Position numbers and translations under genes: made by a program. 64,000 nucleotides of DNA from Roseobacter insulae. Lineage in GTDB: Bacteria > Pseudomonadota > Alphaproteobacteria > Rhodobacterales > Rhodobacteraceae. Positions 30,141 to 53,054 of the stretch are shown here, one piece after another. The notes beneath the pieces were generated by a model, which worked only from the letters and a program-made list of their open reading frames with translations, searched no databases and was not told where the DNA came from. Where the stretch lies: NCBI RefSeq assembly GCF_019375555.1, contig NZ_JAHXDN010000005.1:372001-436000 (forward strand), in the 5' to 3' direction. Position 1 is the first letter of the stretch, and the number at the start of each line of letters is the position of its first letter.

Positions 30141-30638
30141 TGTCGCTTCTCCTTTGGCCGGATGTACCCCCCAGCGACGGGAGCGGGCAAACACGGCGTT
30201 TCGATTCAATGATCACCGTTGGAGTGATCGTGGGCGTATAGACTTGGTTTGTGATAGGATCAAGGGTCAGTTTGATCTCTGAGGCAGCTTGAAGAACTTC
30301 AATTGTGTTTCTAGCAGCAATGTCAGTTGTGCGGGACAAACCACCATTTCGCTGCACTTGCGCCAATGTCTGGTTCAGAAGGTTTTGCGAACCTTCAGGT
30401 TGGTTTGCACATGATTTGCACACTTTCACTGCCAACGATCATGACTTAGCGGGATAGTCAGTCCATTCCTACATCGGTGATGATGTGGATGGAGGCTTAT
30501 ACCGCATCCCGGCAATCAATGCTGACGTCGATTTTCATTGACTGACCGGCGAATGGCGTCCGAACTTCGCAGAGTCTGTCTAGTGGTGACAATGGTTGAT
30601 ACATCAATCCGTTGGCGATCAAGGTGTGTTTTACAATC
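30141..30638. other. Island edge next to rplO (498 bp without a gene)
   Basis: Holds the candidate rplO promoter and an inverted repeat GATCAC/GTGATC (30211-30229) near its predicted transcript start. A 102-codon minus-strand frame (30127-30435) fits no family I know and overlaps rplO, so I do not call it. The segment 30440-30630 is rich in A and T and looks like old inactive sequence. No tRNA or integrase remnant was recognised. Confidence 0.5.
30235..30263 (-). promoter_or_regulatory. Candidate promoter of rplO-secY-adk
   Basis: On the minus strand TTGATC (30263-30258), a 17-nt spacer, then TATACG (30240-30235). The same spacing and the same -10 hexamer occur before rpmC. Transcription would start about 90 nt before the rplO ATG, giving the cut-off downstream half of the spc operon its own start. 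Confidence 0.6.
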
Positions 30639-31304
30639 CTACTTAACCCCAACCAAATCGGAGTATGAACGCTCGCCCCGCGTGATTTGTCGTTTGAGTA
30701 CGTCCTTGGCTGGTTTCACCTTACCTTCGTGCAGAAGGGTCGTAATGGCTTCATGCTCCTTGAATGATTTTGCTGTCCGCTCGGAACGCCTGGACAGATA
30801 CGTTCGCATGGTGCGGACGATGTCGCCGACTTTTTGATATCCATCCCGCAAGTAGTTGTTTCCACAATGCCGGAAAAAGGCATCGTGAAATTCAGCGTCA
30901 AACTTCAGATATTGCTCGAAGGAGTTGGCAGCGCGGGCGTCAGACATCTTTGAGACAATATCGTCAAGCTCTGCCAGCAGAGCGTCGCGGTCCGCAGCGA
31001 GCGCTTGGTCCAATGCGGCGGTTTCGAGGATCAGCCTGTACCGGCAGAGTTGAACCACATCGTCCTGCGACAAAGAGAAAACAAAGGCGCCCCGGTGCGG
31101 AATGACCTGGACAAGACCCTGAAGGTTGAGCGCGGCCAACGCCTCACGAATCGGAGTTTTGCTGATACCCATGAGCTCCGAAAGCTTCGCCTCTTGCAGT
31201 GACTCACCCAATCGAAATGTGCCGGTGACAATAGCTTGCCGAATGTGGTCTTCGGCAATTTTACTCAACGATTCAGGACGCTTGATCTGCAATGGGTCTG
31301 CCAT
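30639..31304 (-). CDS. GntR family (FadR/FCD type) transcriptional regulator
   Basis: 221 residues from the ATG at 31304, with GAGGTGAG before it. Seen: an N-terminal winged helix with SKIAEDHIRQAIVTGTF and ISKTPIREALAALNLQGLV, then an all-helical FCD effector domain with His residues (FDAEFHDAFFRHCGN) of the metal-binding type. It is divergent from the TRAP operon, and the 16-bp palindrome at 31370 lies between them. Likely a repressor released by a sugar acid (inference). Confidence 0.92.
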   Translation of the reverse strand: MADPLQIKRPESLSKIAEDHIRQAIVTGTFRLGESLQEAKLSELMGISKTPIREALAALNLQGLVQVIPHRGAFVFSLSQDDVVQLCRYRLILETAALDQALAADRDALLAELDDIVSKMSDARAANSFEQYLKFDAEFHDAFFRHCGNNYLRDGYQKVGDIVRTMRTYLSRRSERTAKSFKEHEAITTLLHEGKVKPAKDVLKRQITRGERSYSDLVGVK

Positions 31305-31353
31305 ACTCACCTCTTTTTTCTTGGGCCACCTTAGCACGATCTCAAAAGCTGTC

Positions 31354-31381
31354 TTGATTTATATATTGTATCTGATATATC
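31354..31381 (+). promoter_or_regulatory. Candidate promoter of the TRAP operon
   Basis: TTGATT (31354-31359), 16 nt, TATATC (31376-31381). The -10 lies inside the 16-bp palindrome, so a bound regulator would block polymerase. The transcript would start about 45 nt before dctP. Confidence 0.6.
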
Positions 31382-31385
31382 AGAT
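31370..31385. promoter_or_regulatory. GntR operator, perfect palindrome
   Basis: ATCTGATATATCAGAT, a perfect 16-bp palindrome between the divergent GntR gene and dctP. Closely similar sites occur at 46228, 46250 and 47079, all in front of other island units, so this is probably the common regulon operator. Confidence 0.8.
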
Positions 31386-31431
31386 CGAAAATTAACAAAT
31401 CAAACCATCGCTCAACCCCCGGGAGGACATT

Positions 31432-32430
31432 ATGTTCAAAAGACCTACAATCGCACTCAGCCTTGCCCTGGCAGCCGGACTTGCATTTGCAGCATCCGCT
31501 GAGACCGTCATCAAGGTCGGTCATGGCGCCGCCGAAGCGTTCCACATGCATCGTGCGCTCCTGAAATTCGAAGAACTTGTCGAAGCCGGGTCAAACGGTG
31601 AAATCGACGTGCAAATCTTCCCGTCCTCCCAAATGGGCCCCGACCGAGAGATGATCGAAGGCGTTCAAACCGGTGTTCTGGAAATGGCGATCCCGCCTTC
31701 CTCCTTCTTTGCAGGCTGGGATCCGGCTTTTGCGGTGATTGAACTTCCTTACATGTACGCCTCCAAGGACATTGCCTTTGACGTGCTGGACGGCGCTGCC
31801 GGTGATCAGATGCTGGAACGGGTCGAAAGCCAGGGCCTCGTGGGTCTTGGCTGGCTGGAACTGGGGGTCCGCAACGTTACCAACAACGTCCGCCCCGTCG
31901 CGACACCCGAAGATCTTGAAGGCGTAAAGCTGCGTACGATGAAAGTACCGGCGCATGTTGCCACATTCGAGACGCTCGGGGCCAACCCAACGCCGATGAA
32001 CTTTGGCGAGGTTTACTCCGCCCTCCAGCAGGGCGTGATTGACGGGCAGGAAAACCCGCTGGCGATCATTACCTCCCAGCGGTTCTATGAGGTGCAGAAG
32101 TATCTTTCGACAACCGGTCACGTGTTCGCGGTCTATATGCCTGTCATGTCACAGTTCTTCTATGACAGCCTGTCCGCTGAACACCAACAGCTGGTCAAAG
32201 ACTCGATGGCAGCCGCTCGCGTGTATCAAGCAGAGTTGGTCGCCGCCGAAGATGCCGCACAGCTGGAACAGATCCGCGCCGCTGGTGTCGAGGTTCTGGA
32301 ACTGACAGCCGAGCAACGTCAGGCATTTGCAGATAAGACCGAAAGCGTGCGCCTGCAGTATCGCGAAGAGGTCGGGACGGAAGCCTACGACGCGTGGGTG
32401 GCAGCTGTGGCAGACGCGAGCGGAAGCTGA
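31432..32430 (+). CDS. TRAP transporter solute-binding protein (DctP family)
   Basis: 332 residues. Seen: a Sec signal peptide with a likely cut after AASA near 22, then the DctP fold with QIFPSSQMGPDREMIEGVQ, the conserved Arg in GVKLRTMKVP that grips the carboxylate, and QGVIDGQENPLAII. It captures an organic acid in the periplasm for the DctQM membrane pair. It is first in the operon under the perfect palindrome; a hairpin follows the gene. The ligand is unknown, a sugar acid or hydroxy acid being likely from context. Confidence 0.93.
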   Translation: MFKRPTIALSLALAAGLAFAASAETVIKVGHGAAEAFHMHRALLKFEELVEAGSNGEIDVQIFPSSQMGPDREMIEGVQTGVLEMAIPPSSFFAGWDPAFAVIELPYMYASKDIAFDVLDGAAGDQMLERVESQGLVGLGWLELGVRNVTNNVRPVATPEDLEGVKLRTMKVPAHVATFETLGANPTPMNFGEVYSALQQGVIDGQENPLAIITSQRFYEVQKYLSTTGHVFAVYMPVMSQFFYDSLSAEHQQLVKDSMAAARVYQAELVAAEDAAQLEQIRAAGVEVLELTAEQRQAFADKTESVRLQYREEVGTEAYDAWVAAVADASGS

Positions 32431-32445
32431 TTTTCGGACAATTCA

Positions 32446-32476
32446 GGGCATCCGCGCCACACAAAGCGCGGGTCCC
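32446..32476 (+). promoter_or_regulatory. Hairpin between dctP and dctQ
   Basis: GGG-CCGCGC and GCGCGG-CCC form an interrupted stem around CACACAAA, 15 nt after the dctP stop. A short TCTT follows but no true T-run. It probably protects or attenuates the message so that the binding protein is made in excess. Confidence 0.55.
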
Positions 32477-32500
32477 TCTTCGTTTAAGGGGAGGTAAACG

Positions 32501-32986
32501 ATGTCACTTGTCAAATGGATCGATCTGAATATTGAAAAAGTTATGGCCAGCACGCTGCTGGCGGCCATTGTTGTGCTGATCTTCGGCAATGTCTTCATGC
32601 GCTACGTCATGAATGCCTCGCTGTCGTGGGGCGAGGAGCTGACGCTCTGGCTGTTTGTCTGGTTTGTGTGGCTTGGTGTCAGTTACGCGTTCCATACCGG
32701 TGACCATGTACGGATAACAGTCCTGCGCGACATTCTGAGCGACCGGGCACGACTTGTTGCAGATGTCGTGATCGCGCTTCTCGTCCTCGGGTTTCTTGTC
32801 ATGCTGACAATCGAGTGCATCAAGCTGATCATGTTGCCGTTTGTGGCAAGCCAGACATCCGTCGTTCTCGGGCTGCCGATCCCGATCCTCTATGCCTCTG
32901 CCCCGGTCGGCGCAGCCCTTTCCGCGATCCGTGTCATCCAACATTTGATCAGAACGCTGCGACTGATCGCACAAACCAAAGCGTGA
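32501..32986 (+). CDS. TRAP transporter small permease (DctQ family)
   Basis: 161 residues with four hydrophobic helices. Seen: FGNVFMRYVMNASLSWGEEL, the conserved RY...W.EE block at the end of helix 1, and GVSYAFHTGDHVRI. It associates with DctM and the binding protein in the inner membrane. AGGGGAGG lies before the ATG. It lies 71 nt after dctP and 10 nt before dctM. Confidence 0.92.
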   Translation: MSLVKWIDLNIEKVMASTLLAAIVVLIFGNVFMRYVMNASLSWGEELTLWLFVWFVWLGVSYAFHTGDHVRITVLRDILSDRARLVADVVIALLVLGFLVMLTIECIKLIMLPFVASQTSVVLGLPIPILYASAPVGAALSAIRVIQHLIRTLRLIAQTKA

Positions 32987-32996
32987 GGGTTTTCCA

Positions 32997-34280
32997 ATGC
33001 TGGCTACAGCTCTCTTCCTGACCCTCCTTGCCCTCCTGCTCTTCAGCGTACCCATCGGCATTTGCCTTGGCCTTGCAACCATGATCGTGATGATCTTCGT
33101 CGATGGCACGCCGCCTATGGTGCTTCTGGCACGGTCAGTCGTAACAGGCGCGGATTCCTTTCCATTGATCGCTGTGCCGCTTTTCATTCTGGCTGGCGAT
33201 TTGATGCAGCACGGAGGCATGTCGCGGCGTCTGGTGGGTTTTGCCAACGCTCTGATCGGCCACATCCGAGGCGGGTTGGCCTATGTGAACGTGCTGGCAT
33301 GCGTCTTCTTTGCGGCCATCTCCGGCTCGTCCCCGGCAACTGTGGCCGCCATCGGGTCGAACATGATCCCCGAGATGGAAAAGGTCGGATACACGCGCAG
33401 GTTCAGTGGTGCGCTGACCGCATCTTCCGGCATGATCGGGGTTATGATCCCGCCAAGTATTCCGTTTATCATCTATGGCGTGACCGCCGAGGTTTCGATC
33501 GGAAAACTGTTCCTTGCGGGCGTCATTCCGGGTGTTCTCTTTGCGCTGATGTTCATGCTGGTTGCCCGCTTTTTGTTGCGCAACGATGAGGTTGTTCAGC
33601 AATCCACCACCACATTCTCCGGTCCAGGCGTCTGGCAAAGCTTCAAGACATCGATCTGGGCGCTTCTCGTACCGGTGATCATTCTTGGCGGCATCTACAG
33701 CGGCATCTTCACCCCAACCGAGGCAGGCGCCGTCGCGGTGGTTTATGCTGCCATCATCGGTATTTTTGTCTACGGCGATATCACCGCCAAGGACCTGCCC
33801 GAAATTCTCGCAGGGTCGGCAAAGACCAGCGGCACTATTCTTGTCCTGGTGATCATGGCCACTGCCTTTGGCAGGCTGATCACTCTGGCGCGGATACCCA
33901 CTGAACTGGCGACGACAATTACCAGCCTCTCTGACAATCCGATCATCATCCTTTTGTTGATCAACCTGTTGCTGTTGGTGATCGGCATGTTCATGGAGAC
34001 GATTTCATCAATCATCATCATGACACCAATCCTGTTGCCGGTGGCAACCGCCCTGGGTGTCGATCCAATTGCCTTCGGCGTTATCCTGACGGTCAATCTG
34101 GCGATCGGATTTTGCACACCGCCGCTGGGTGTGAACCTCTTTGTGGCGAGCAGCATCTCGAAAGTGTCCATTGAGAAACTCAGTCAGGCGATCTTGCCCT
34201 TTTTTGTCGGCATGCTGATCCTGCTGATGCTTATCACCTATGTTCCGGCGATTTCCTTGGCTTTGCCGTCCCTTTGGTGA
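32997..34280 (+). CDS. TRAP transporter large permease (DctM family)
   Basis: 427 residues with about twelve hydrophobic helices. Seen: PLFILAGDLMQHGGMSRRL, SGSSPATVAAIGSNMIPEM and IPPSIPFIIYGV, the signatures of the DctM sodium-driven elevator subunit. It moves the substrate with sodium ions. The length is typical. It is followed by an FMN-dependent alpha-hydroxyacid dehydrogenase 47 nt downstream, which suggests that the imported acid is a 2-hydroxy acid. Confidence 0.94.
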   Translation: MLATALFLTLLALLLFSVPIGICLGLATMIVMIFVDGTPPMVLLARSVVTGADSFPLIAVPLFILAGDLMQHGGMSRRLVGFANALIGHIRGGLAYVNVLACVFFAAISGSSPATVAAIGSNMIPEMEKVGYTRRFSGALTASSGMIGVMIPPSIPFIIYGVTAEVSIGKLFLAGVIPGVLFALMFMLVARFLLRNDEVVQQSTTTFSGPGVWQSFKTSIWALLVPVIILGGIYSGIFTPTEAGAVAVVYAAIIGIFVYGDITAKDLPEILAGSAKTSGTILVLVIMATAFGRLITLARIPTELATTITSLSDNPIIILLLINLLLLVIGMFMETISSIIIMTPILLPVATALGVDPIAFGVILTVNLAIGFCTPPLGVNLFVASSISKVSIEKLSQAILPFFVGMLILLMLITYVPAISLALPSLW

Positions 34281-34327
34281 TCGGTCCGGGGCCTGCGGGC
34301 GCAATGACACAAGGTTGGAGATATTAG

Positions 34328-36392: not shown

Positions 36393-36402
36393 TTGTCACT
36401 CC

Positions 36403-37104
36403 TCACATTGCGAGATAGCCGCCATCGACCGGATAAATCGACCCGGTGACAAAGCTGGCATGATCACTCAAGAGCCAGCGCACAAGCGCGCCGACCTCTT
36501 CGGGTTTTCCCCATCGTTTCATTGGCGTGCGTGCCATGATCCCTTCGGTCCGCGCAGGATCATCGCGCAAGCCTTGGGTCATTTCAGTCTCAATCCAACC
36601 CGGCGCGATTGCGTTCACACGGATCCCCTCTTCGGCCCAGTGACCCGCCAAGGCTTTGGTCAACTGCGCCACGCCTCCCTTTGAGGCAGAATAGGCAGGT
36701 ACCAATGGACCGCCAAAGGTACTCAGCATTGAGGCCGTGTTCACAATTGCGCCGCCACCCTTGGCCAACAACGGTTGCGCCGCAAGGCAACACCGCATGG
36801 TCCCGGTCAGGTTCACATCCAGAACCTTGGCAAAGACGTCGATGTCATACTCATCCCCGCGCAGCAAAATGCCCGCGCAGTTCACCAGCGCATCAAGCTG
36901 CATCAGACCGCCAATTACCTCATCGACCGAAGATTGGTTGGTGACGTCCAACAGTTGCGTCGTGATCCCGTCCTGTGGCTCAAAAGCATCCAGTTCCGTC
37001 TGTGACACGGATGCCGCGACGACCGACCAGCCCGCTTGGGCAAGCGACCGCGCCACCCCTGCCCCAATCCCGCGCGTCCCTCCGGTGACAACAGCCTGTT
37101 TCAT
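36403..37104 (-). CDS. Short-chain dehydrogenase/reductase (SDR), sugar-operon member
   Basis: 233 residues from the ATG at 37104, which overlaps the aldolase stop as ATGA. Seen: the NAD(P) motif TGGTRGIG, NCAG, the catalytic Ser in NTASML and YSASK (Tyr and Lys), IAPGWIETEM and the C-terminal SFVTGSIYPVDGGY. The classical SDR layout suggests oxidation of a sugar or sugar-acid hydroxyl or reduction of a keto group; which one cannot be told from sequence. Confidence 0.88.
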   Translation of the reverse strand: MKQAVVTGGTRGIGAGVARSLAQAGWSVVAASVSQTELDAFEPQDGITTQLLDVTNQSSVDEVIGGLMQLDALVNCAGILLRGDEYDIDVFAKVLDVNLTGTMRCCLAAQPLLAKGGGAIVNTASMLSTFGGPLVPAYSASKGGVAQLTKALAGHWAEEGIRVNAIAPGWIETEMTQGLRDDPARTEGIMARTPMKRWGKPEEVGALVRWLLSDHASFVTGSIYPVDGGYLAM

Positions 37105-37727
37105 GTCAAGTCTTCCCAAGCCTTCTTAAACCCACGAGCGTGCTTGCCGATATCATCCAGTGAGTAGCCTGGCTTGAAAAGGGCAGACCCCAGCCCAAAC
37201 CCGTTTACGCCTGCAACATGATAAGGCGCCATCGTGTCGGGGGTAATCCCGCCGACCGCTGCGACGACAGAATCGGACGGCAAAACGGCCCGCATGGCAG
37301 CAATGGCATTTGGGGGCACCATTTCAGCGGGGAAAAACTTGAGCACAGACGCGCCAAGATCCAGCGCGGAAAAAGCCTCGGATGGGGTCATGACGCCGGG
37401 ACACCAGTGCAGCCCCTGCGCAACCGCTGCGCGCCCCACTTCCGGGTTCATGTTCGGAGAAACGATGATCCTTCCGCCCGCCTCTGCGACCGCCTCAACC
37501 TGTTCGACGTTGAGTACTGTTCCGGCCCCGATAATGGACTGCGCGCCGTGCTGTGCCGCAATCCGCTGGATAGACATCAGTGGGTCAGGAGAGTTGAGCG
37601 GGACTTCGATGATGCGGAAACCTGCGTCCACAAGGACGTCCGATACAGGACGCGCGTTTTCCGGCTCCAACCCTCGCAGGATTGCAATCAGGGGGTTTTC
37701 GGCAAGTGCCGTGGCCAAGTCGATCAT
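37101..37727 (-). CDS. dgoA: 2-dehydro-3-deoxy-6-phosphogalactonate aldolase (KDPG/KDPGal family)
   Basis: 208 residues. It cleaves KDPGal (or KDPG) to pyruvate and glyceraldehyde 3-phosphate. Seen: IAILRGLEPENA, the catalytic Glu in IEVPLNSPDP, IGAGTVLN, and the Schiff-base Lys in SVLKFFPAEM. The RGLEP opening and the paired KDGal kinase favour the DgoA rather than the Eda branch. It overlaps the kinase gene by 4 nt and the SDR gene by 4 nt. Confidence 0.92.
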   Translation of the reverse strand: MIDLATALAENPLIAILRGLEPENARPVSDVLVDAGFRIIEVPLNSPDPLMSIQRIAAQHGAQSIIGAGTVLNVEQVEAVAEAGGRIIVSPNMNPEVGRAAVAQGLHWCPGVMTPSEAFSALDLGASVLKFFPAEMVPPNAIAAMRAVLPSDSVVAAVGGITPDTMAPYHVAGVNGFGLGSALFKPGYSLDDIGKHARGFKKAWEDLT

Positions 37728-38644
37728 CCGAGCAACCCCGCAGCGCGCGCAATCAGGAAGTGGCCCTGTGCGACGATATCGTCCGGTGCACGACGGCTAT
37801 TGAATCCCGCCATACCAAGCGCTGTTTCATACCGGTCCGACAGGTCATTGCGACCGACAACGGTGATGGGTCCGATGTCTTCTGCATCTTGCGTCGCCGC
37901 CGCAACTTCAGTCCCAATAAGAAGGCCCGACATATAGTCTGCGGTGGCGACCTTGGGTATTTTTCCCATCAGCGGCAGGGTCCGCACATGGAACAGATTG
38001 TTCAGCAGGTTCGTCCGCCCATCAAGGCCTGCTCTCGCGCCCATCTCGAATGCCTCTTCGTTGAAGCCGTCGGCTTCCATCAACGTGCCAAGGATGGTGT
38101 GCTCTTTCAGTGCGGCAAATATTTCGCCGGTCATATAGGTCGAGAAGTCGACGATCTGCCCCTCTGCGACTTGGACCCATTTGCTGTGGGTGCCGGGCAT
38201 CACGAACATGCCGTCTTTCAACCCCTGAGCGGATGCGCCGATGATCTGCGTCTCTTCACCGCGCATCACGTCGGGGCCACCTTTGTGTTCGATAGAAGCC
38301 CCCGTCACAAAGTGGACCAGAGCGCCGTTCGCGATTTCGTGCGGCACCAACGCGCCCGCAAGACCGCAAGCACCAAGCGGCATTTCAGCGTATGGTGTCT
38401 CGATCCATCCGTTTCGGCTGGTGATCATCCCGGATGCCAGGATTGGCAGGTTTGTCTGCGCCACCCAGGGTCCGATGAGGCGATCAAGGATCGCCTCGAA
38501 GGATTGCCCCGAGACCTGCATGATCCCTTCCGGTGAAGTGACCCCGTCAATGACCTCCCCGCTCGCGCCAATCAAAAAGGCACGGAGCGATGAGGTGCCC
38601 CAATCGACACCGATCAAGGCCGGGTCAGATGCGACCGAATTCAT
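37724..38644 (-). CDS. dgoK: 2-dehydro-3-deoxygalactonokinase
   Basis: 306 residues. It phosphorylates 2-keto-3-deoxygalactonate at the 6 position with ATP. Seen: IGVDWGTSSLRAFLI (the ATP-phosphate loop of the ASKHA fold), SGMITSRNGWIETPY, and MPGTHSKWVQV, all DgoK-specific. Together with the aldolase it forms the lower DeLey-Doudoroff pathway. Its start overlaps the RraA-like gene by 20 nt. Confidence 0.93.
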   Translation of the reverse strand: MNSVASDPALIGVDWGTSSLRAFLIGASGEVIDGVTSPEGIMQVSGQSFEAILDRLIGPWVAQTNLPILASGMITSRNGWIETPYAEMPLGACGLAGALVPHEIANGALVHFVTGASIEHKGGPDVMRGEETQIIGASAQGLKDGMFVMPGTHSKWVQVAEGQIVDFSTYMTGEIFAALKEHTILGTLMEADGFNEEAFEMGARAGLDGRTNLLNNLFHVRTLPLMGKIPKVATADYMSGLLIGTEVAAATQDAEDIGPITVVGRNDLSDRYETALGMAGFNSRRAPDDIVAQGHFLIARAAGLLG

Positions 38645-41656: not shown

Positions 41657-41657
41657 G

Positions 41658-42659: not shown

Positions 42660-44179
42660 GCGAACACCTCCTCGAGATTGGTTTCGGTGGTATCGGCAGA
42701 CGCGCGCACCAGATCGTCATGGGTCAGGTCGGATGCCTCAACGGTGCGCGTGATCGCGCCATGCTGAACGATTGCGATCCGGTCGCTCATTGCCAGCAGT
42801 TCGTCATGATCCGAGCTGATCAGGATGATGGATTTGCCCGCGCGCGTCAGCTTGTTGATCAGCTTGTAGACTGCGATTTTGGCTCCGATATCGATGCCTT
42901 GCGTCGGCTCATCAAGGATCAGAATGTCCGAATCCGAGAACAGCCAGCGCGCGATCACGATCTTCTGCTGGTTGCCCCCGGACAGGAAGTTGACGGTCTT
43001 TTCCTCGGCCTGTGTCGAGATCTCAAGATCCCGGATCAGGTCATGTGTCGCCTGCTCTTCGGCTTTCAGATTCAGCACACCAAGGCGAGATAGCCCGCCC
43101 AGCGAGGCCGCAGTGATATTGCCGCTTGCACGGAAATTGAAAAACAATCCGTCGTATTTGCGGTTCTCCGGCACCAGCGCCAGCCCGGCACGGATCGCAT
43201 CCATTTCCCGGCGGAAGCGAACTGGCTTTCCGTTCAGGATCAGCTGCCCGGCGGAGAGTTCATCTGTTCCGAACAGGGCGCGGGCAATTTCGGTACGGCC
43301 ACTTCCCAGCACACCACCCAGGCCCAGAACCTCGCCCCGGTGAAGGGCGAACGACGCATCCGTCACGCCAGAAGCTGTCGCGAGCCCGTGCGCTTCCATG
43401 ACAACTTCGGCCGTCGCATTTTGCTCCTTGGGGTAGTGTTCTCCGATGTCCTCCCCCACCATGGCGCTAACAATCTCGGATACGTTGATTTCTGTCTCGC
43501 CGCTCGCGCGCACGACCTTGCCACCGCGCAGGATGGTTACCTCATCAACGATCCGTTCGACCTCATCCAACCGGTGCGAGACATAGAGGATGCTGGTGCC
43601 GCGGCCACGCATATTGCGCAAAAGCTGGTGGAGGCGTTCGATCTCGTCTTCGCCCAAGGCGGCTGTCGGTTCATCAAGGATGATCATCCGGGCGTCCATG
43701 GCCACGGCCTTGGCAATCTCGACCAGCTGTTGTTCACCAACCGACAACGTGCCGGTGATGGCATCGGGTGAGACGTCGACGTCCATTTCCGCAAGAACGC
43801 GGGCTGCTTCGCTGTGGACCTTAGCCCAGTCGATGACGCCAAACCGAGACCGGGGCATGTTGCCCAGAAAGATGTTTTCACCAACCGACAGCGTTGGCAC
43901 GATAGAGAATTCCTGAAACACTGTCGCAATGCCATGATCGCGCGCAACCTGAGGATCGCTGATGGTTACGGGTTGTCCATTGTGAAGGATCTGACCGCTG
44001 TCAGGTTGTTGCACGCCGGACAGTGTCTTGATCATCGTGGACTTGCCGCAGCCGTTTTCGCCCAGCAGCCCGTGGATCGATCCGGGTAACAGTTTGATCC
44101 GGACCTTGTCGTTCGCCAGAACGCCGGGATAGGCCTTGCTGATGTCGACAAATTCCCAAAGGGGCGTGGCGGTGGTCAT
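42656..44179 (-). CDS. Sugar ABC transporter ATP-binding protein, two ATPase domains (RbsA/MglA type)
   Basis: 507 residues from the ATG at 44179. Seen: domain 1 with GLLGENGCGKSTMIK, LSVGEQQLVEIAKAVA and IILDEPTAALG; domain 2 with the altered P-loop GGVLGSGRTEIARAL, LSGGNQQKIVIARWL and LILDEPTQGIDIGAK, as is normal in this class. It powers carbohydrate uptake. The upstream extension to 44236 runs over a hairpin and is rejected. A gap of 87 nt with the hairpin separates it from the binding-protein gene. Confidence 0.94.
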   Translation of the reverse strand: MTTATPLWEFVDISKAYPGVLANDKVRIKLLPGSIHGLLGENGCGKSTMIKTLSGVQQPDSGQILHNGQPVTISDPQVARDHGIATVFQEFSIVPTLSVGENIFLGNMPRSRFGVIDWAKVHSEAARVLAEMDVDVSPDAITGTLSVGEQQLVEIAKAVAMDARMIILDEPTAALGEDEIERLHQLLRNMRGRGTSILYVSHRLDEVERIVDEVTILRGGKVVRASGETEINVSEIVSAMVGEDIGEHYPKEQNATAEVVMEAHGLATASGVTDASFALHRGEVLGLGGVLGSGRTEIARALFGTDELSAGQLILNGKPVRFRREMDAIRAGLALVPENRKYDGLFFNFRASGNITAASLGGLSRLGVLNLKAEEQATHDLIRDLEISTQAEEKTVNFLSGGNQQKIVIARWLFSDSDILILDEPTQGIDIGAKIAVYKLINKLTRAGKSIILISSDHDELLAMSDRIAIVQHGAITRTVEASDLTHDDLVRASADTTETNLEEVFA

Positions 44180-44223
44180 CGCGATTGCCTCGATTAGTAG
44201 GTGAATTTCGATTGGATTGCGCC

Positions 44224-44251
44224 CCCGGCAGCACACAAAGGTGCCACCGGG
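44224..44251 (-). promoter_or_regulatory. Hairpin between the sugar-binding protein and ATPase genes
   Basis: On the minus strand CCCGGTGGCAC and GTGCTGCCGGG pair over 11 positions including two G-U pairs, with a 6-nt loop. No T-run. It is placed to limit read-through into the ATPase gene or to stabilise the binding-protein message. Confidence 0.6.
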
Positions 44252-44266
44252 AAGCAGGGAGAACCC

Positions 44267-45301
44267 TCAGTACTCTTTGGATGGCTGCGGGAAGAGCTTT
44301 TCAGGCTCTTGCAGGACGCTGATGGCACCGTCCTTGTCTTCGATCGAGGTCGGCGTTTCGATCCAACCGCCGGGGTAGGACCCGTTGAGGGCATCAATCG
44401 TCGCATGCATCGCGGCCTTGCCCATCAGGAAGGGAGAGGTGTTGACCGTTGCGGTGATATTGCCCGCTGCAATCTCTTCCAAGCCGGAGGTGTCCCCGTC
44501 ATTGCCAAGCAGCACGATATCGCGACGGCCCAAGGCTTTGGCGGCAAATGACGCGCCAATGATCATGTAGTCATTCGCCGCAAAGATCATGTCGAGATCA
44601 GGGTGCGATTGCAGGATATCCATCCCCGCCGTGTTGCCGCCTTCGACGTTCCATTTGCCGTCTATCGATACGACAACCTCAAAATTCTCGTTGCCTTCGA
44701 TCCCGTCCAAGAACCCGCCCACACGCTCGGTTGAGTGATAACCCGGCTGGCCTTCGATGATGCCCACCTTCAACGGATTGTCACCATAGGTTTCGATAGC
44801 CCAGTCCGCGATATTGTGGGTGCCGTTGCGCTGCGAGTACCCCACCACACCATGGATCGGTGTCGGGAAGTTTGGGATGTCAGAGTTGATCATCAACACC
44901 GCCATACCCTTGTCGACGGCCTGCTTCAGCAGTGGTGCTGCGGCAAATTCATCATGCGTGCCAAAGATGATCGCATCGACGTCCTGGGTCAGAACATCTT
45001 GAATCATGCCCATCTGGCCATTGATATCCGCACCCGATTGCGGGGCCAGCATGAAGACCTCTACGCCCTCTTCTGCGGCGACGGCTTTAATGCCTTCGCC
45101 AATGGCAATGTAGTAGTTGAACTCCGTTGCCGGCGGCATGTAGGCGATCCGTAACGTCTCGTTTGTGGGTGTGATCGCGTCAATTGGAGCTTGCGCGCCG
45201 TCTTGCAGTGGAACAGGTGCCGGGTAGTTTTCGGCTTGCGCGGTGCAGGCAATCACGGCAAAGCCGGCAGCAAGCGTCGTATTCATCAGCTGTTTCAACA
45301 T
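44267..45301 (-). CDS. Sugar ABC transporter periplasmic binding protein (Peripla_BP_4 class)
   Basis: 344 residues. Seen: a Sec signal peptide with a likely cut after TAQA near 23, and the ribose-binding fold with IAYMPPATEFNYYIAIG, LINSD-like VLMINSDIPNFP, KVGIIEGQPGYHSTERV, MIFAANDYM and LLGNDGDTSGLEEI. It collects a mono- or oligosaccharide in the periplasm. It is second in the operon, 26 nt after the SMP-30 gene. Confidence 0.93.
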   Translation of the reverse strand: MLKQLMNTTLAAGFAVIACTAQAENYPAPVPLQDGAQAPIDAITPTNETLRIAYMPPATEFNYYIAIGEGIKAVAAEEGVEVFMLAPQSGADINGQMGMIQDVLTQDVDAIIFGTHDEFAAAPLLKQAVDKGMAVLMINSDIPNFPTPIHGVVGYSQRNGTHNIADWAIETYGDNPLKVGIIEGQPGYHSTERVGGFLDGIEGNENFEVVVSIDGKWNVEGGNTAGMDILQSHPDLDMIFAANDYMIIGASFAAKALGRRDIVLLGNDGDTSGLEEIAAGNITATVNTSPFLMGKAAMHATIDALNGSYPGGWIETPTSIEDKDGAISVLQEPEKLFPQPSKEY

Positions 45302-45327
45302 GGTCTTCTCCTCCAGAATTGGGTTGG

Positions 45328-46197: not shown

Positions 46198-46227
46198 TTT
46201 GGTGACCTCCCATCGCCAAATACTGAT

Positions 46228-46243
46228 ATCTGATATTCCAGCT
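46228..46243. promoter_or_regulatory. GntR operator A (13 of 16 match)
   Basis: ATCTGATATTCCAGCT, 13 of 16 identical to the perfect palindrome at 31370, on the side nearer the SMP-30 gene. Probably controls the minus-strand operon. Confidence 0.55.
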
Positions 46244-46270: not shown

Positions 46271-46305
46271 CGCCCTTGCAACACATTTTTTGGAGGCACC
46301 ACCAG

Positions 46306-46977: not shown

Positions 46978-47014
46978 CTCAGGCTCAGGACCCCCTAATC
47001 TAAAGTCCATTTCT

Positions 47015-47042
47015 GAAGGCGGCCCCAGAACTGGCCGCCTTC
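47015..47042 (+). terminator. Terminator-like hairpin after the second GntR gene
   Basis: GAAGGCGGCC and GGCCGCCTTC form a perfect 10-bp stem with an 8-nt loop, 38 nt past the stop. The run after it is GCTGCGTT, so termination may be partial or need Rho. Confidence 0.7.
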
Positions 47043-47073
47043 GCTGCGTTAAGTAGACGACCTCTTAATGCAA

Positions 47074-47094
47074 TTGACATCTGAGATATCAGAT
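47074..47094 (+). promoter_or_regulatory. GntR operator C overlapping a consensus -35
   Basis: TTGACA (47074-47079) runs straight into ATCTGAGATATCAGAT (47079-47094), 15 of 16 identical to the perfect palindrome. No good -10 follows at 16-18 nt (CAACCT is weak). It lies 28 nt before the ATPase start and probably controls the second ABC operon. Confidence 0.7.
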
Positions 47095-47121
47095 GCCAAC
47101 CTGAAGAAGGGAGGACGAGAT

Positions 47122-48684
47122 ATGAACGCGACATCGATTCGAGATGGTGAGGCCGCTCCGCCGCTCATTCAGCTGGATGCTGTCGCGAAGAGCTTTGGCT
47201 CCAACCTTGTCCTTGATGGTGTCGATTTCGAGCTTCGCCCCGGAGAGGTTCACGCACTGTGCGGCGAAAACGGCGCGGGGAAGTCCACCTGCCTGGACCT
47301 GCTCTACGGTCTGCACCAGCCCTCAGATGGCAAGATACTGTGCAACGGCAAGGAACAGCGGATCGAGAATCCTTCGCACGCGCAATCTCTCGGCATCAGT
47401 TGCGTCTTTCAGGAACTTAGCCTCGCAGGCGCACTGTCCGTTGCGGAAAACATCTATGCTGGGCGCGCCCCTGCTCGCATGGGCGTTGTTGACTGGCCAG
47501 AACTGCGCCGCCGTGCCGAGGCGCTTTTGGCTGAGTTTGGGCTGGAGATTGATGTCTCAATGCCCGTGGACAGCTTGCCCATCAGTTCGCGACAAATCGT
47601 TGAGATCGCCAAGGCGCTTTCCCTGAATTCACGCGTTTTGTTGTTGGATGAGCCAACGTCGGCCCTTGCACCGGACGAGGTTGACGCATTGTTCGACGTT
47701 CTGCGCGGCCTAACCCGCAAAGGCATCGGCATCGTCTATGTCAGTCATCACATGGCGGAGATTTTTCGCATTTCCGACCGCGTGACCGTTCTGCGCGATG
47801 GCCGTCACATCAGCACGTTGCCCGCGACACAAACCTCGCAAGAGCAAGTCGTCGCGGAAATGATCGGCGGCGCCCACCCCGGCGACGTCAGCGGCTCCAG
47901 AACTGTCAATGGTGACAAGGTTGTTGCCGTGACCGGGCTGTCCCATCCCGGTGAATTCGAAGATATTTCCTTTTCCATAAATGCCGGCGAAATCGTTGGG
48001 ATGGCCGGCCTGATGGGTGCGCGTCGCAGCGAGATTGTTCGGTCGATTGTTGGGCTTGTGCAGGGCGCGACCGGCAATGTTGAATTGCATGACCAACCTG
48101 TCAAGTTCACATCCATCAGGCAGGCGATGCGGGCCGGGATCGGGTTCGTTCCAGAAGAACGCAAAACCGAAGGCCTGTTCCTCGAACAGTCTCTCAGCGA
48201 CAATTTGATTGCCGCCAGCCTGGCAGAGCACACATCGATGGGTCTGATGCGCAATGGTTCTATTCGGGCCGCCAGCAGAGCCGCGATCGATGCGTTCAGC
48301 GTCAAGGCAAGCGGGTTGGCCGAGGAAGTTGGCGCGCTGTCTGGAGGCAACCAGCAAAAGATCATGCTGGCCAAGTGGCTCAAGCGCGTGCCTGATCTCC
48401 TGATTGTTGAGGAGCCGACGAAAGGCGTCGATGTCGGAGCCAAGTTTCAAATCCACACAGAACTACAGCGCCGCGCTGCCGAAGGCATGGCGATCCTCGT
48501 TGTGTCCTCGGATTTTCCCGAATTGGTGTCACTTTGCTCGCGGATACTTGTTGTCCACGAAGGCCGGCTGATGGGGGACATCCCCGCCGAACAGGCCAGC
48601 GAAAGCGTGCTCCTCCAAATGGCTGCCGGAACAACACTCCGCTCAGCAGCATCCGCAACCCCAGATTCAGGAGCGACGTTGTGA
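47122..48684 (+). CDS. Sugar ABC transporter ATP-binding protein, two ATPase domains (second importer)
   Basis: 520 residues from the ATG at 47122 with GGGAGG before it. Seen: domain 1 CGENGAGKSTCLDLL, ISSRQIVEIAKAL and LLLDEPTSALAPDE; domain 2 AGLMGARRSEIVRSI, LSGGNQQKIMLAKWL and LIVEEPTKGVDVGAK. It is only distantly like the first island ATPase, so this is a separate importer rather than a recent copy. It overlaps the permease gene by 4 nt (GTGA). Confidence 0.94.
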   Translation: MNATSIRDGEAAPPLIQLDAVAKSFGSNLVLDGVDFELRPGEVHALCGENGAGKSTCLDLLYGLHQPSDGKILCNGKEQRIENPSHAQSLGISCVFQELSLAGALSVAENIYAGRAPARMGVVDWPELRRRAEALLAEFGLEIDVSMPVDSLPISSRQIVEIAKALSLNSRVLLLDEPTSALAPDEVDALFDVLRGLTRKGIGIVYVSHHMAEIFRISDRVTVLRDGRHISTLPATQTSQEQVVAEMIGGAHPGDVSGSRTVNGDKVVAVTGLSHPGEFEDISFSINAGEIVGMAGLMGARRSEIVRSIVGLVQGATGNVELHDQPVKFTSIRQAMRAGIGFVPEERKTEGLFLEQSLSDNLIAASLAEHTSMGLMRNGSIRAASRAAIDAFSVKASGLAEEVGALSGGNQQKIMLAKWLKRVPDLLIVEEPTKGVDVGAKFQIHTELQRRAAEGMAILVVSSDFPELVSLCSRILVVHEGRLMGDIPAEQASESVLLQMAAGTTLRSAASATPDSGATL

Positions 48685-49673
48685 CTATGACCGTTCAATC
48701 AGACTATTCGGAGAAACGGCCCCCTCTGCTCCGTATCCTTCAAGCTTTCGTGGATATCCGCGAATTGATGCTGATTGTTCTGATCGCGGCCATCATCATC
48801 GTGATGTCCAACCTGAACCCCTATTTCTTCAGTTTTTCCAACTTTCGTGCCGTGGCCGTCGGCATGGCCCCGACAGCAATCATTGTGATTGGCATGGCAA
48901 TCCTTCTGGCCTCTGGCGGGTTTGATCTATCGGTCGGGTCGGTCATGGCGTTGTCCTCAACTGTGGTCGCGATGTTGCTTTTGACAGGCATGCCCATTCC
49001 GCTTGCTGTCATTCTGGGCCTGATCCTTGGCGGTGTGGTGGGCGTTGTGAACGGCGTGCTTGTCACCGGGCTGGGGATTAATCCGCTGATTGCGACGCTC
49101 GGCACAATGTCGATTGCGCGCGGCATTGCGCTGGTCCTGACGGAAGGGTTTTCCGTCTCCAGCCTGCCCGTCTCCTTTGCCTGGATCGGCAAGGCTGACA
49201 TCGGCGGTTTTCCGGTGATCGTGTTGCTGACGATCTTGCTGGTGATCGCTTTTGATCTGGCGGTCCGTCATACCCGGTTCTTCCGGCAGGTCTACTTCAT
49301 CGGTGCCAATGAGAAGGCGGCGATGCTGTCTGGCATCCATGTCACCCGCGTCCGCATCATCCTTTATGCACTGACCGGCGTTCTTGCGGCCCTGGCCGGG
49401 GTTCTTCTGGCGTCCCGCCTGATGAGCGGCACACCCACGGCTGGCAATGGCATTGAGCTTCAGGTTCTGGCAGCGGCCGTCATTGGTGGCGCGTCGCTTC
49501 GCGGCGGCGAAGGCACGATCCTCGGTGCATTCCTTGGCGTGGTCTTTGTCGCGCTGATCAACAACACGATGACCATGCAAGCCGTATCGATCTACTGGCA
49601 GATGATCGTCATCGGCGGGGTCCTGGTTTCCGCCGTGGCACTGGACATGCTGATCCGAAGCAAACGGGGCTGA
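48681..49673 (+). CDS. Sugar ABC transporter permease (second importer)
   Basis: 330 residues from a GTG at 48681; AGGAG lies 7 nt before it and it overlaps the ATPase stop as GTGA. An ATG two codons later is possible. Seen: MAILLASGGFDLSVGSVMALS, the RbsC-type hallmark, and LQVLAAAVIGGASLRGGEGT. It forms the channel of the second importer. Confidence 0.92.
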   Translation: MTMTVQSDYSEKRPPLLRILQAFVDIRELMLIVLIAAIIIVMSNLNPYFFSFSNFRAVAVGMAPTAIIVIGMAILLASGGFDLSVGSVMALSSTVVAMLLLTGMPIPLAVILGLILGGVVGVVNGVLVTGLGINPLIATLGTMSIARGIALVLTEGFSVSSLPVSFAWIGKADIGGFPVIVLLTILLVIAFDLAVRHTRFFRQVYFIGANEKAAMLSGIHVTRVRIILYALTGVLAALAGVLLASRLMSGTPTAGNGIELQVLAAAVIGGASLRGGEGTILGAFLGVVFVALINNTMTMQAVSIYWQMIVIGGVLVSAVALDMLIRSKRG

Positions 49674-49726
49674 CCCCTGTTTTCAAGACAATCCAACATC
49701 CAACGATCCGAACAAGGGAGATCACC

Positions 49727-50722
49727 ATGACTGAAATGAACGTAAACCGGCGCAAGCTGCTGACCGCAGGCACCACCGCGGGACTCGCCGCCGCCTTTGG
49801 CTTGCCCATACTGTCGAAAGAAGCAATGGCACAGGCGGCTGGCAAGGAATATGTCTTCCTGTCGATTGTCACTCAGGTGCCGTTCTGGGTGGACTACCGC
49901 AACGCAATGAAAGACCTCGAAGAGCTGATGGGCATCAAGGCCACTTTCACAGGCCCGCTCGATTTCGACACTGCCGCGCAGGCGCGGCAACTTGACGAAC
50001 TCATTGCACGCCGCCCCGCTGGCATTCTGATCTTCCCCGGTGACCCGGCCACGCTGGCGCCGGGCGTCGAACGCGCGGTTGAGGCTGGTATCCCGGTGAC
50101 GTGCTGTATCGGTGACATCCCCGATAGCCCCCGGTCAACCTTCCTGGGCATCAACGGCGTGCAGGCCGGCCGTGTTGGTGGCGAAATGCTGGCGCAGGCG
50201 ATCGGTGGCAAAGGCAAGGTCATCCTTGGCACCTTCCCTGCCCCCTCCACGCTGGAACGGGTTGAGGGTTACAAACAGATCTTTGCCGAGAACTACCCAG
50301 ACATCGAAGTCGTCGATGTGGTCAACGACAAGGCTGATCCATCCTACGCACCGACGGCCTATCTTCAGGCGATTCAAGCCAACCCGGATATCGTCGGCAT
50401 TGGCGGTACAGACGGGGACAGCGGCAAAGGGGCTGCAATTGCCGTCAATGAAGCGGGGCGCAAGGATATCAAGATCGTCGCGATGGACCGCAACGACGAC
50501 ATGCTTCCCTACATCGAAGACGGCACAATTTACGGCGCTGTGGCACAAAAATCCTATCTTGAGATCTTCCTCGCCTTCCACATGATGCATTGGCAAAACA
50601 CCGATGCCCTGAAGGTCCTGCCGGATTGGAAAGCCGCCGGGATCAACCCATTGCCCGAACGTGTCGAAACAGGCGTCATGCCGATCACGGCCGAAAACGT
50701 CGCGCAGTTCAAACACGTCTAA
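49727..50722 (+). CDS. Sugar ABC transporter periplasmic binding protein with a Tat-type signal
   Basis: 331 residues. Seen: a twin-Arg signal NRRKLLTAGTTAGLAAAF ending AMAQA near 36, then the ribose-binding fold with GPLDFDTAAQARQLDELI, FPGDPATLAPGVERAVEAG and GIGGTDGDSGKGAAIA. Tat export of a sugar-binding protein is less common than Sec and hints at folding or cofactor needs in the cytoplasm. It is third in its operon, and a strong hairpin follows. Confidence 0.92.
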   Translation: MTEMNVNRRKLLTAGTTAGLAAAFGLPILSKEAMAQAAGKEYVFLSIVTQVPFWVDYRNAMKDLEELMGIKATFTGPLDFDTAAQARQLDELIARRPAGILIFPGDPATLAPGVERAVEAGIPVTCCIGDIPDSPRSTFLGINGVQAGRVGGEMLAQAIGGKGKVILGTFPAPSTLERVEGYKQIFAENYPDIEVVDVVNDKADPSYAPTAYLQAIQANPDIVGIGGTDGDSGKGAAIAVNEAGRKDIKIVAMDRNDDMLPYIEDGTIYGAVAQKSYLEIFLAFHMMHWQNTDALKVLPDWKAAGINPLPERVETGVMPITAENVAQFKHV

Positions 50723-50728
50723 ACATCG

Positions 50729-50757
50729 CACCCGGCGCGGCTCCTTCGCGCCGGGTG
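50729..50757 (+). promoter_or_regulatory. Strong hairpin after the second sugar-binding protein gene
   Basis: CACCCGGCGCG and CGCGCCGGGTG form a perfect 11-bp stem with a 7-nt loop, followed only by TCTGCTTG. It lies between the binding protein and the downstream enzyme genes and probably lowers their expression. Confidence 0.7.
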
Positions 50758-50779
50758 TCTGCTTGCGGAGCAACACCTC

Positions 50780-51682
50780 TTGTCTGATCGCTGGGCCGTC
50801 ATAAAGCTGCAAAATCACGATCTGGATCTCACGATCCTGCCTGGGATCGGTGGCCGCCTCTGGGACGTGACAGTCGAGGGCCGCTCCTTGCTGTTTCAAA
50901 ACCCCGACCTTGTCGGGTTGCCCTTCGACACATCCGATCTTGCGGGTCTGCCAACAAAGTCACCGCAATTTGGCTTTCCGCTATGGGGTGGTGAAAAGAC
51001 CTGGATCGCGCCGGACACGGACTGGGTGAACGGAGCGCCCTACCGCGTTCTGGACAGTGGTGCCTATCGGATCACAGCAAAGCAGAGCGATTTGGTCGAA
51101 TTGACCAGTGAGGTCTGTCCCTTGACGAGCCTCTCCGTGCGACGCCGTATCGCGCTGACCTCTGCAACGACATGGACCATCGATCACTTGGTGACCAACA
51201 ATGGCGCTTCACCGCGCAGGACGGGGATATGGTCCGTCATGATGATCAACACGCCCGCCAAGATCGGGGTGGCGATGGACAATCCGGAATTCCATCCCGT
51301 CTTTGGTCAGGCCAGGCCTCTGGTTGAAACCCACAACAGCGGCGTCGTGGCAAGTTGTGCGAGGCGGCAGGAATTCAAAGTCGGTTTGCCAAACCGCCAG
51401 GGAAAGACACTCATCAAATTCAACGAGGCCGGGCCGTTTCTGATGTGTTCGGTCCCAAAGCCATCACCAAAAGACAGGTTTGCGCATCAGCACCCCGTGG
51501 AGATCTTCAATTCAGGCGATTATCCCTACTGCGAGGCGGAGTGGCATTCACCAATGACTGAACTCATGCCCAGCGAAACGCTGGGTTTTCAACAGCACTT
51601 TCGCTTTTGGTCAACCGAAACAACGGTGCCCGCAGACCAGACAATCTCAGAATACGAGGAACTCCTGTCATGCATGTCATGA
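50780..51682 (+). CDS. Galactose-mutarotase-fold protein (aldose 1-epimerase-like)
   Basis: 300 residues from a TTG at 50780 with GGAG 9 nt before it. Seen: ILPGIGGRLWDV near the start, PLWGGEKTWIAPD, VRRRIAL, and the FQQHFRFWSTE tail; the pattern is that of aldose-epimerase-like enzymes of unknown specificity. It may interconvert sugar anomers ahead of the dehydrogenase, with which it overlaps by 13 nt. The catalytic His and Glu could not be placed with confidence. Confidence 0.72.
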   Translation: MSDRWAVIKLQNHDLDLTILPGIGGRLWDVTVEGRSLLFQNPDLVGLPFDTSDLAGLPTKSPQFGFPLWGGEKTWIAPDTDWVNGAPYRVLDSGAYRITAKQSDLVELTSEVCPLTSLSVRRRIALTSATTWTIDHLVTNNGASPRRTGIWSVMMINTPAKIGVAMDNPEFHPVFGQARPLVETHNSGVVASCARRQEFKVGLPNRQGKTLIKFNEAGPFLMCSVPKPSPKDRFAHQHPVEIFNSGDYPYCEAEWHSPMTELMPSETLGFQQHFRFWSTETTVPADQTISEYEELLSCMS

Positions 51683-52479
51683 TAACCGGTGCCGGTGGGC
51701 ATTTGGGCCGCAAACTGTTTGACGCGCTTGAGGGTGACCCGGATCGCACTGTCAGCGGGATCGACATTCGGCCAGTGGATCACCCGAACATTCACATCGC
51801 GGACCTGTCTGACGACGCCAGTTGGGTTTCGCTTCTTGAGGGGGTGGACGTCATCGTGCACCTTGCGGGCGACCGGGAGCCTGGGGCCTCTTGGGCGTCC
51901 GCCATCAAACACAACATGGACGCGACCCTGACCCTCTACCACCATGCTGCAAAAATGGGTGTTGGCCGGGTTGTCCTCGCCAGTTCGAATTGGATCCACG
52001 GCGACAAACGGTTCACAGATGACAGATTGGATTCAACCACGCCCCCTGGCCCGATCAATGCATACGGGATGTCAAAACTGTTCTGCGAGCGGACGGGGGC
52101 ATACTTTGCAGAGCACCACGGGCTTTCCGTCATTTGCCTGCGTATTGGCTGGACCCAATGGACCCATGACAACCAGCCGGGGCCGCATATGGCTATGGGC
52201 CGCTGGGGTCAGGAAATGTGGTTGAGTGACAGGGATTTTCTGAATGGAATGCGCGCTGCGATCAATGCAGAAGGCGTTCAATTCGCCGCTTTGAACTTAA
52301 TGTCCGATAATCCGGGTATGCGGTGGGACATCTCCGAAACTAAGCGTGTCATCGACTACCAGCCGCAAGATGGCAGCCCCGCTAAGACACCCCCCCTAAT
52401 TGTATTCAAATCCGCAATCAAAGGCATACTATCTTTCCACGCCATCAGATTTGCCGAGGGTTTTTTCCCAGACTGGTAG
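51670..52479 (+). CDS. NAD-dependent epimerase/dehydratase family protein, uronate-dehydrogenase-like
   Basis: 269 residues from the ATG at 51670 (an ATG at 51679 is also possible). Seen: TGAGGHLGRKL for NAD, VIVHLAGD, LASSNWIHGD, the catalytic YGMSK, and LRIGWTQWTHDN, an arrangement like bacterial uronate dehydrogenase, which oxidises galacturonate or glucuronate to the aldarolactone. The last roughly 30 residues after a run of seven C (52390-52396) do not look like the family, so the end may have been altered. It closes the second ABC operon. Confidence 0.82.
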   Translation: MHVMITGAGGHLGRKLFDALEGDPDRTVSGIDIRPVDHPNIHIADLSDDASWVSLLEGVDVIVHLAGDREPGASWASAIKHNMDATLTLYHHAAKMGVGRVVLASSNWIHGDKRFTDDRLDSTTPPGPINAYGMSKLFCERTGAYFAEHHGLSVICLRIGWTQWTHDNQPGPHMAMGRWGQEMWLSDRDFLNGMRAAINAEGVQFAALNLMSDNPGMRWDISETKRVIDYQPQDGSPAKTPPLIVFKSAIKGILSFHAIRFAEGFFPDW

Positions 52480-52513
52480 GAAAGGCCTTATAATGGTCGA
52501 CAGAGTTGCGCTG

Positions 52514-52545
52514 CTCAGATTTCTACATACTCAGATTTCTACATA
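52514..52545. repeat. Perfect tandem repeat, 2 x 16 bp
   Basis: CTCAGATTTCTACATA occurs twice in a row without mismatch. It lies in the noncoding edge of the island. Two copies only; possibly a slip of replication. Confidence 0.85.
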
Positions 52546-53054
52546 TCGGAGCAAATTGGCTGAACACGACCGGGCCAAGAACCTCCAAGGACGGCCGCAG
52601 TTTGCTCGGGGACCGGACAGACCGCTCAGATTGGCAGAGAATAGAAAGCAAATAGGCGGGCTTACGCGCCTTGAATGCCAGCTTCCTCACTGGCATAAGC
52701 CCAAGCCGACCCAAATCCTGCCGTAAATTCTGTCACTACATGTCCGGAAAAAACGTGATCGCCCTTTTAGGAGGTCGCAAGGAGAATGTGATTTTGCTCG
52801 CTCAAACGAGCCGCAATGGGACCAAACTACCTTAACCGCAGAATACCCGACATTGCACGCCGGAAGGCAATTCCAAGTTGCACAAATGGTGCACAGAGTG
52901 CCACTTATCTTATTGAATATTATTATAAAAATGCCCAATCCATCACAGGACAATGCAATGACCGCCCTCCAATGACTGCTTCGAAACGGTTTTCAAACCC
53001 TGGTGCATATTGCAGCATCTGCCACTTTGCGCTCAGAGCGGACACTCCACCCAT

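Follow-up and report, generated by a model that had tools for sequence, protein, structure and literature searches.

The S10-spc-alpha ribosomal protein gene cluster of Roseobacter insulae is divided between rpmD and rplO. In the 64-kb stretch analysed here (positions 372001-436000 of the contig that carries the cluster, referred to below as the window), the two genes are 22,971 bp apart and 24 sugar-acid genes lie between them. The spc order rpmD-rplO is normally contiguous, and in other alphaproteobacteria the two genes adjoin. We consider it quite likely that the cluster has an inherited seam at this point, with transcription signals of its own, and that cargo is exchanged there by way of the flanking genes. 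Genome comparison establishes the seam, the conservation of its predicted signals, the turnover of its cargo, the absence of the sugar-acid island from the rest of the genus and the presence of copies elsewhere. The island is a large, recent cargo at a hotspot of gene exchange.

Gene order at the rpmD-rplO junction

The arrangement in the window is confirmed as real. The source genome is a draft of 4.88 Mb in 17 contigs, which could speak for an assembly error, the true genome having rpmD and rplO adjacent or a small cargo between them. We regard such an error as very improbable. The split site is interior to a contig of 444,688 bp and a simple repeat-driven misjoin is therefore unlikely. The edges of the island are nearly single-copy, as the right edge matched only itself in its own genome and the left edge matched itself and one 57-bp stretch at 79%. 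Both transcription signals are intact, and a congeneric genome (G416) also carries 5.2 kb between rpmD and rplO. The first-pass annotation, made from the sequence alone, had placed catabolic genes in a split of the spc cluster at 30264-53054. The length of the gap and the profile scans of the 24 genes support that claim, and the edges fit the points where homology to four close relatives ends, at 30243-30277 on the left and at 53055-53056 (three relatives) or 53116 (one) on the right. The closest named loci by rpsE are those of Roseobacter sp. H9 and uncultured Roseobacter isolates.

Gene order points to the split as an inherited feature of the family (Rhodobacteraceae), older than the island. 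Outside the family, the rpmD-rplO gap is 7-102 bp in 39 of 40 alphaproteobacteria and 642 bp in one; these 40 were taken from 112 outgroup genomes with a match and are mostly the best-scoring ones. Within the family, 295 genomes were surveyed for each gene; 278 or 284 of them matched, 150 placements were listed in each case, and the comparison covers the 111 genomes common to the two lists. In 88 of these, rpsE and rplO share a contig and a strand and are separated by 340-23,165 bp (median 1,408), the distance in the window being the largest. Both rpmD and rplO are in range in 70 of 80 named loci; in these 70 the median gap is 1,310 bp, and it exceeds 500 bp in 57. At least 9.7 kb follows rpmD in 6 of the 10 remaining loci. 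Among the other junctions of the cluster, 13 never exceed 500 bp (0 of 61-80 loci each), rpoA-rplQ does so in 1 of 57 loci and adk-rpsM in 21 of 63. The contrast between rpmD-rplO and the near-constant spacing at 14 of the 15 other junctions identifies it as a gene-exchange hotspot. The first-pass annotation had considered that the island might be found in most relatives as an ancestral arrangement. Ancestry holds for the split, which is common and inherited, and does not hold for the island; most relatives compared for gene order carry other genes at this junction.

The content of the gap changes rapidly between species. Open reading frames (ORFs) were called by a base-composition rule, not by a gene finder. 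The gaps of the named loci, excluding the window, hold 134 ORFs that fall into 89 clusters, 74 of them singletons. Gaps range from 840 to 22,971 bp across 19 genomes of the genus, one per species, and 12 of the 19 contain a single called ORF. An acyltransferase is shared by three of these genomes (G412, G413 and G415) and two other pairs of ORFs are shared; no further sharing was seen, and the cargo is mostly unrelated. Four of the 19 appear identical to named loci L003-L006, so that the two sets are not independent there. Family scans covered 111 of the 134 cargo ORFs, those below 100 aa being left out. The families are a mixture; the 25 listed of 70 Pfam families, the remaining 45 having a single member each, include the von Willebrand factor A domain (10 proteins), the DEAD-box helicase (6) and the metallo-beta-lactamase fold (5). 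No integrase or transposase was found among the 111 proteins in these 25 Pfam families or in the 25 listed of 32 PHROG families (reaching E about 1e-6). Of 21 genus cargo proteins of at least 120 aa (window excluded), 10 were scanned; they matched 6 Pfam families in all, and several had no match.

Some further observations concern the junctions themselves. Proteins with a von Willebrand factor A domain (10/111) and DEAD-box helicases (6/111) recur in the rpmD-rplO gap. A reading of the gap as a defence island was rejected: each of the PADLOC families listed (25 of 55) hits six cargo proteins, which are presumably the DEAD-box helicases just mentioned, and the 10 genus proteins gave one weak defence match (PD-T4-5, E 0.0006). 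In another alphaproteobacterial family, gaps of 642 bp (L099/G403) and 102 bp (L116/G303) each contain a terminator-like hairpin, judged by eye, and are perhaps an independent start of the same split. The second variable junction, adk-rpsM, spans about 1.1-1.2 kb in the window (~26334-27528) and contains an ORF (27011-27478, minus strand) with no Pfam match.

Predicted transcription signals and a leader RNA at the junction

The rpmD-side and rplO-side parts of the cluster look like separate transcription units in the family, judging from predicted signals that lie at the limits of the conserved sequence. The features of the junction in the window, in the direction of transcription, are as follows.

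53303-53878, minus strand: rpsE (S5), upstream part of the split spc operon
53112-53306, minus strand: rpmD (L30), final gene of the upstream unit
53055-53083, minus strand: terminator-like hairpin and T6 after rpmD, limit of conserved sequence on the rpmD side
30234-30263, minus strand: predicted rplO promoter, TTGATC, 17 bp, TATACGC
30138-30233, minus strand: rplO 5' leader from the -10 box to the start codon, from the alignment
30157-30197, minus strand: conserved hairpin GCCG...UCCGGC, whose loop GUCGCU can pair with the spacer before the start codon (putative pseudoknot)
30141-30156, minus strand: Shine-Dalgarno sequence and spacer, 3' partner of the putative pseudoknot
29658-30140, minus strand: rplO (L15), opening gene of the downstream unit
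28170-29537, minus strand: secY, with a spacing to rplO of 94-143 bp in 69 loci

A terminator-like site, that is, a hairpin with a T-run within 160 nt of the rpmD stop codon, is present in 76 of 79 loci including the window; such sites also occur in shuffled stretches (139 of 790) and in random ones (115 of 810). The predicted promoter lies about 100 nt before the ATG of rplO, and a score of at least 10 out of 13 was reached in 69 of 71 loci, the window included, and in 12 of 1,420 shuffled upstream regions. In comparisons of the window with four close relatives, homology extends to just beyond the terminator in three of the four and, on the rplO side, to a point slightly upstream of the -35 box. 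Over 171 pairs of genomes within the genus, homology past the rpmD stop codon ends at a median of 53 nt (interquartile range -2 to 58) and homology upstream of rplO ends at a median of 125 nt (103-139). By a crude pattern, the end of the terminator is 53-56 nt past rpmD in 10 of the 19 genus genomes; in 17 of them the -35 box lies 120-124 nt before rplO.

These results bear on the claim of the first-pass annotation that the insertion had broken a working operon and robbed rplO-rplQ of their promoter. The conserved rplO promoter and the terminator-like site after rpmD speak otherwise. In Ruegeria pomeroyi, according to the part of the report considered here, a terminator was predicted, and reverse transcription PCR (RT-PCR) found no transcript joining the gap genes to rpmD or rplO (PMC3305630), which likewise argues against a lost promoter. 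We infer that the promoter and terminator signals work as predicted in this strain.

Between the promoter and rplO lies a structured leader. A hairpin GCCG...UCCGGC is found just before the Shine-Dalgarno sequence in all 71 loci with rplO, including the window. Over 64 distinct sequences, 93.6% of the alignment cells are paired in the proposed register of the hairpin, as compared with 28.7-55.1% in slid registers. Cells changed on both sides numbered 66 versus 23.9 ± 3.5 in shuffles, and the covariation score was 0.294 (0 of 500 shuffles) versus 0.107. Two of the five measures were unexceptional, namely the pairs changed on both sides (6; 41 of 500 shuffles) and the further pair types (15; 157 of 500). 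In 64 of 64 sequences the apical loop is able to make 6 or more consecutive Watson-Crick pairs with the spacer, versus 61 of 1,280 with shuffled loops. These pairs were counted by a script because MAFFT sets the two loop types three columns apart. In some lineages the loop and spacer have changed together, for example UUUGCUUC with GAAGCAAA and GUCGCUA with UAGCGAC. When loops and spacers were swapped between species, 3,080 of 4,032 combinations still formed at least 6 pairs, since two motifs are common to most of the species; the covariation support for the pseudoknot comes from a few lineages.

A covariance model of the leader matched 193 of 196 genomes of the order, all belonging to the family and nearly always once; some of these 193 species may be among those used to build the model. 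The three genomes with no match are G493, G101 and G182, the last of which also had no rplO match in the survey. In 34 of 34 cases checked against known positions of rplO, the model match ends at the start of the gene. The leader was sought outside the family and this candidate extension was rejected, as the matches in 3 of 113 genomes of the class were weak and none was at rplO. Rfam 15 gave no family at its gathering score in the window and only weak, unrelated matches at 29600-30600, and a literature search of titles and abstract openings found no report of such an rplO leader. The leader may regulate rplO, probably through L15, the first product of the downstream unit and the likeliest ligand. 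A second leader-like sequence, with the complementary blocks GGGUCUG...CGGACCC nested in GUUGU...GCAAC, lies upstream of rpsM at ~26334-26470 on the minus strand. By eye, it is present in most of 27 loci inspected, and in the window it has no Rfam family at gathering score.

The sugar-acid island and its route of entry

All 24 genes of the island were scanned against NCBIfam or Pfam. The families include a TRAP transporter, two sugar ABC transporters, a KDPGal aldolase, a 2-keto-3-deoxygalactonokinase, an SMP-30-type lactonase, several dehydrogenases, a methylglyoxal-synthase-type protein and two GntR-type regulators. The main features are listed below.

30639-52479, unstranded: sugar-acid uptake and catabolism island, 24 genes, from profile scans
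30278-30638, unstranded: AT-rich stretch (GC 0.48) from the island to the rplO promoter, no recognised gene
30639-31337, minus strand: GntR-type regulator, island gene closest to rplO
31432-34280, plus strand: TRAP transporter DctP, DctQ and DctM
37101-38644, minus strand: KDPGal aldolase (DgoA type) and 2-keto-3-deoxygalactonokinase (DGOK)
40868-41707: short-chain dehydrogenase, overlapping the permease end of the first sugar ABC transporter
41658-45301, minus strand: first sugar ABC transporter (permease, ATPase, binding protein)
47068-50722, plus strand: second sugar ABC transporter (ATPase, permease, binding protein)
51607-52479, plus strand: NAD-dependent epimerase/dehydrogenase-type protein, island gene closest to rpmD
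52480-53054, unstranded: AT-rich stretch (GC 0.50) from the island to the terminator, no recognised gene

Possible relic ORFs at the edges (30127-30435 and 52523-52714) had no Pfam match at E 0.1.

Acquisition from a relative, as a block, is the most likely origin of the island. In the genus, none of the 18 other genomes matched a 19.6-kb part of the island at E 1e-50, and some island match was found in 34 of the 295 family genomes, the window's own included. In one family member (G031) the island forms colinear blocks at C3:60627-82175, with 72-76% identity and between other genes, the ribosomal genes being on C32. In another (G193), colinear blocks occupy C26:4630-25702, rplO being on C28; this copy is without the region at ~34.3-35.5 kb of the window and without the left regulator. 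Rearranged or partial versions are present in G243 and G163 on contigs other than that of rplO. The composition of the island is ordinary, which fits a donor within the family. Its GC is 0.57, with 5 of 35 own-genome 10-kb chunks lower, and 7 to 10 of the 35 chunks are as far as the island or farther in tetranucleotide distance; composition was thus rejected as a mark of foreign origin.

The shift in GC that the first-pass annotation had proposed to look for was not seen. Its statement that no integrase, transposase, tRNA or flanking direct repeat was seen is supported: no mobile-element gene was found among the 24 genes by the NCBIfam and Pfam scans, ARAGORN found no tRNA in the window, and no direct repeat of at least 18 nt brackets the island. 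With its composition also inconspicuous, the island shows none of these marks of a classical genomic island or integrative element. The annotation's picture of an acquired catabolic island agrees with the absence from 18 congeners and the colinear copies in G031 and G193, and its picture of a broken operon is not supported.

How, then, does cargo enter? In the mechanism we propose, the S10-spc-alpha cluster would have an inherited seam between rpmD and rplO, upstream transcription would end at the terminator after rpmD, and rplO-secY-adk would be transcribed from their own promoter through the structured leader. Cargo lying between the terminator and the promoter need therefore not disturb the expression of the ribosomal genes. 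The ribosomal genes on both sides would serve as conserved arms for homologous recombination, so that foreign DNA flanked by such arms could be swapped without an integrase. The window would hold an unusually large cargo, a sugar-acid island found elsewhere in other family members.

Homologous recombination would be the usual route, and we prefer recombination in the flanks as likely, not proved, on evidence from one trio of genomes and one side. In three sister genomes with differing cargo (G414, G417 and G419), the 600 nt beside rpmD differ by 9.3-10.9% (0.71-0.83 of the mean over all pairs), and the sequence 800-3,800 nt out differs by 4.3-4.7% (0.31-0.34 of the mean). The step, about 600-750 nt from the rpmD stop codon, would fit a replacement of the rpsE-rpmD end along with the cargo.

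A site-specific mobile element, such as a Tn7-like transposon or an integrative element, could instead target the sequence after the rpmD terminator, the island being the element or its remnant. The repeated use of the same interval and its sharp limits would suit such an element. These limits fall on transcription signals, which selection would preserve under any route; the island sits away from rplO in G031 and G193, and the lack of tRNA, bracketing repeats and mobile genes in the island, as well as of integrases and transposases in the listed families of the cargo proteins, makes this explanation improbable. A second alternative is a merely tolerant seam, at which any illegitimate insertion or inversion survives given the terminator and promoter, and flank exchange is unnecessary. 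The opposite-strand halves of the cluster in four genomes and the second variable junction at adk-rpsM agree with this. Against it, genomes with 92-97% identity in the rplO-secY flank (G417/G419, G409/G411, G417/G414, G414/G419 and window/G421) hold unrelated cargo, and divergence in the trio rises in a step next to rpmD; both suggest replacement together with flanking DNA. We therefore hold a merely tolerant seam to be unlikely, if still worth considering.

Several observations weigh against the account of an inherited, insulated seam with exchange through the flanks. The divergence step is missing on the rplO side of the trio; G409 and G411, with different cargo, show no step; G412 and G415, with shared cargo, show a smaller rise beside rpmD (6.2 versus 3.9%). 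Terminator-like sites are not rare by chance, as the shuffles above show. One locus with a gap of 116 bp (L060) has the leader without a clear promoter or terminator, and G412 and G415 are without a clear rplO promoter (score 9). Finally, rpsE and rplO are on opposite strands in 4 of the 111 family genomes and on different contigs in 19, a number that may include mere contig breaks, so that rpmD-rplO is also subject to inversions or breaks of other kinds. The opposite-strand cases on one contig are L162-L167 (G043, G110, G200 and G088), and in G200 the two genes lie at 4.51 Mb and 0.43 Mb on a contig of 4.6 Mb.

A fuller version of the preferred account is possible and is put forward tentatively. 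An L15-type leader with a start-site pseudoknot, together with the promoter, may have made the second part of spc autonomous in the family ancestor; this would have created an insulated docking site independent of integrases, with the ribosomal genes as recombination arms and cargo ranging from single orphan genes to the 23-kb island.

Significance and relation to known systems

Ribosomal protein operons are used to trace conserved gene order and vertical descent; in this family one of them is split, and its seam exchanges genes between species. The signs of rpsE/rpmD allele replacement in the trio bear on phylogenies built from these genes. The arrangement suggests a rule: within an essential cluster, the stretch that separates a terminator from a promoter is where a bacterium can take up foreign DNA cheaply. 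For L15 autoregulation the rplO leader offers a testable candidate, and those who work on the genetics of marine roseobacters could use the seam as a neutral landing site.

The junction has been noticed before. In the part of the 2012 report considered here (PMC3305630), the Ruegeria pomeroyi region is 1.8 kb and holds two novel genes between two ribosomal operons; in the closest roseobacters it is 0.1-1.5 kb with no mutual similarity, and this variability was noted. It is the same junction, with a predicted terminator and no RT-PCR link to rpmD or rplO. There it was a curiosity in a few roseobacters, and that part of the report does not mention large cargo, an outgroup comparison, an rplO promoter or a leader RNA. 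Within the portions of the literature consulted, nothing was found on the spread of the variable gap through the family, the contrast with outgroups, the sharp limits or the leader RNA.

The junction resembles the horizontal gene transfer hotspots that lack mobile elements (PMC5635113, considered in part) in that genes turn over fast between fixed core genes and mobile-element genes are scarce or absent; for these hotspots, double recombination in the flanks has been proposed. The interval is far richer in accessory DNA than its neighbours (57 of 70 loci above 500 bp, a criterion that differs from the statistical threshold of that study), and its content turns over strongly between close relatives in the 19 genus genomes. 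It differs in that its flanks are a split ribosomal protein operon, and the word 'ribosomal' is missing from the part of that text considered. Other insertions of genes into the conserved ribosomal cluster are similar in kind, but concern rpoBC-str, str-S10 and rplL-rsmC in Gammaproteobacteria and Bacilli, the word 'alphaproteobacteria' being missing from the portion of the source at hand. The rplO leader shares with ribosomal protein leaders (PMC7247131) a covarying structured RNA directly upstream of a ribosomal protein gene. The part of Table 1 considered there contains no bacterial L15 leader; eL15 is archaeal, and L2 (rplB) and L17 (rplQ) may concern Alphaproteobacteria. As a hotspot, the rpmD-rplO junction is thus of a kind already known; what sets it apart is its position within a ribosomal operon and the transcription signals on either side of it.

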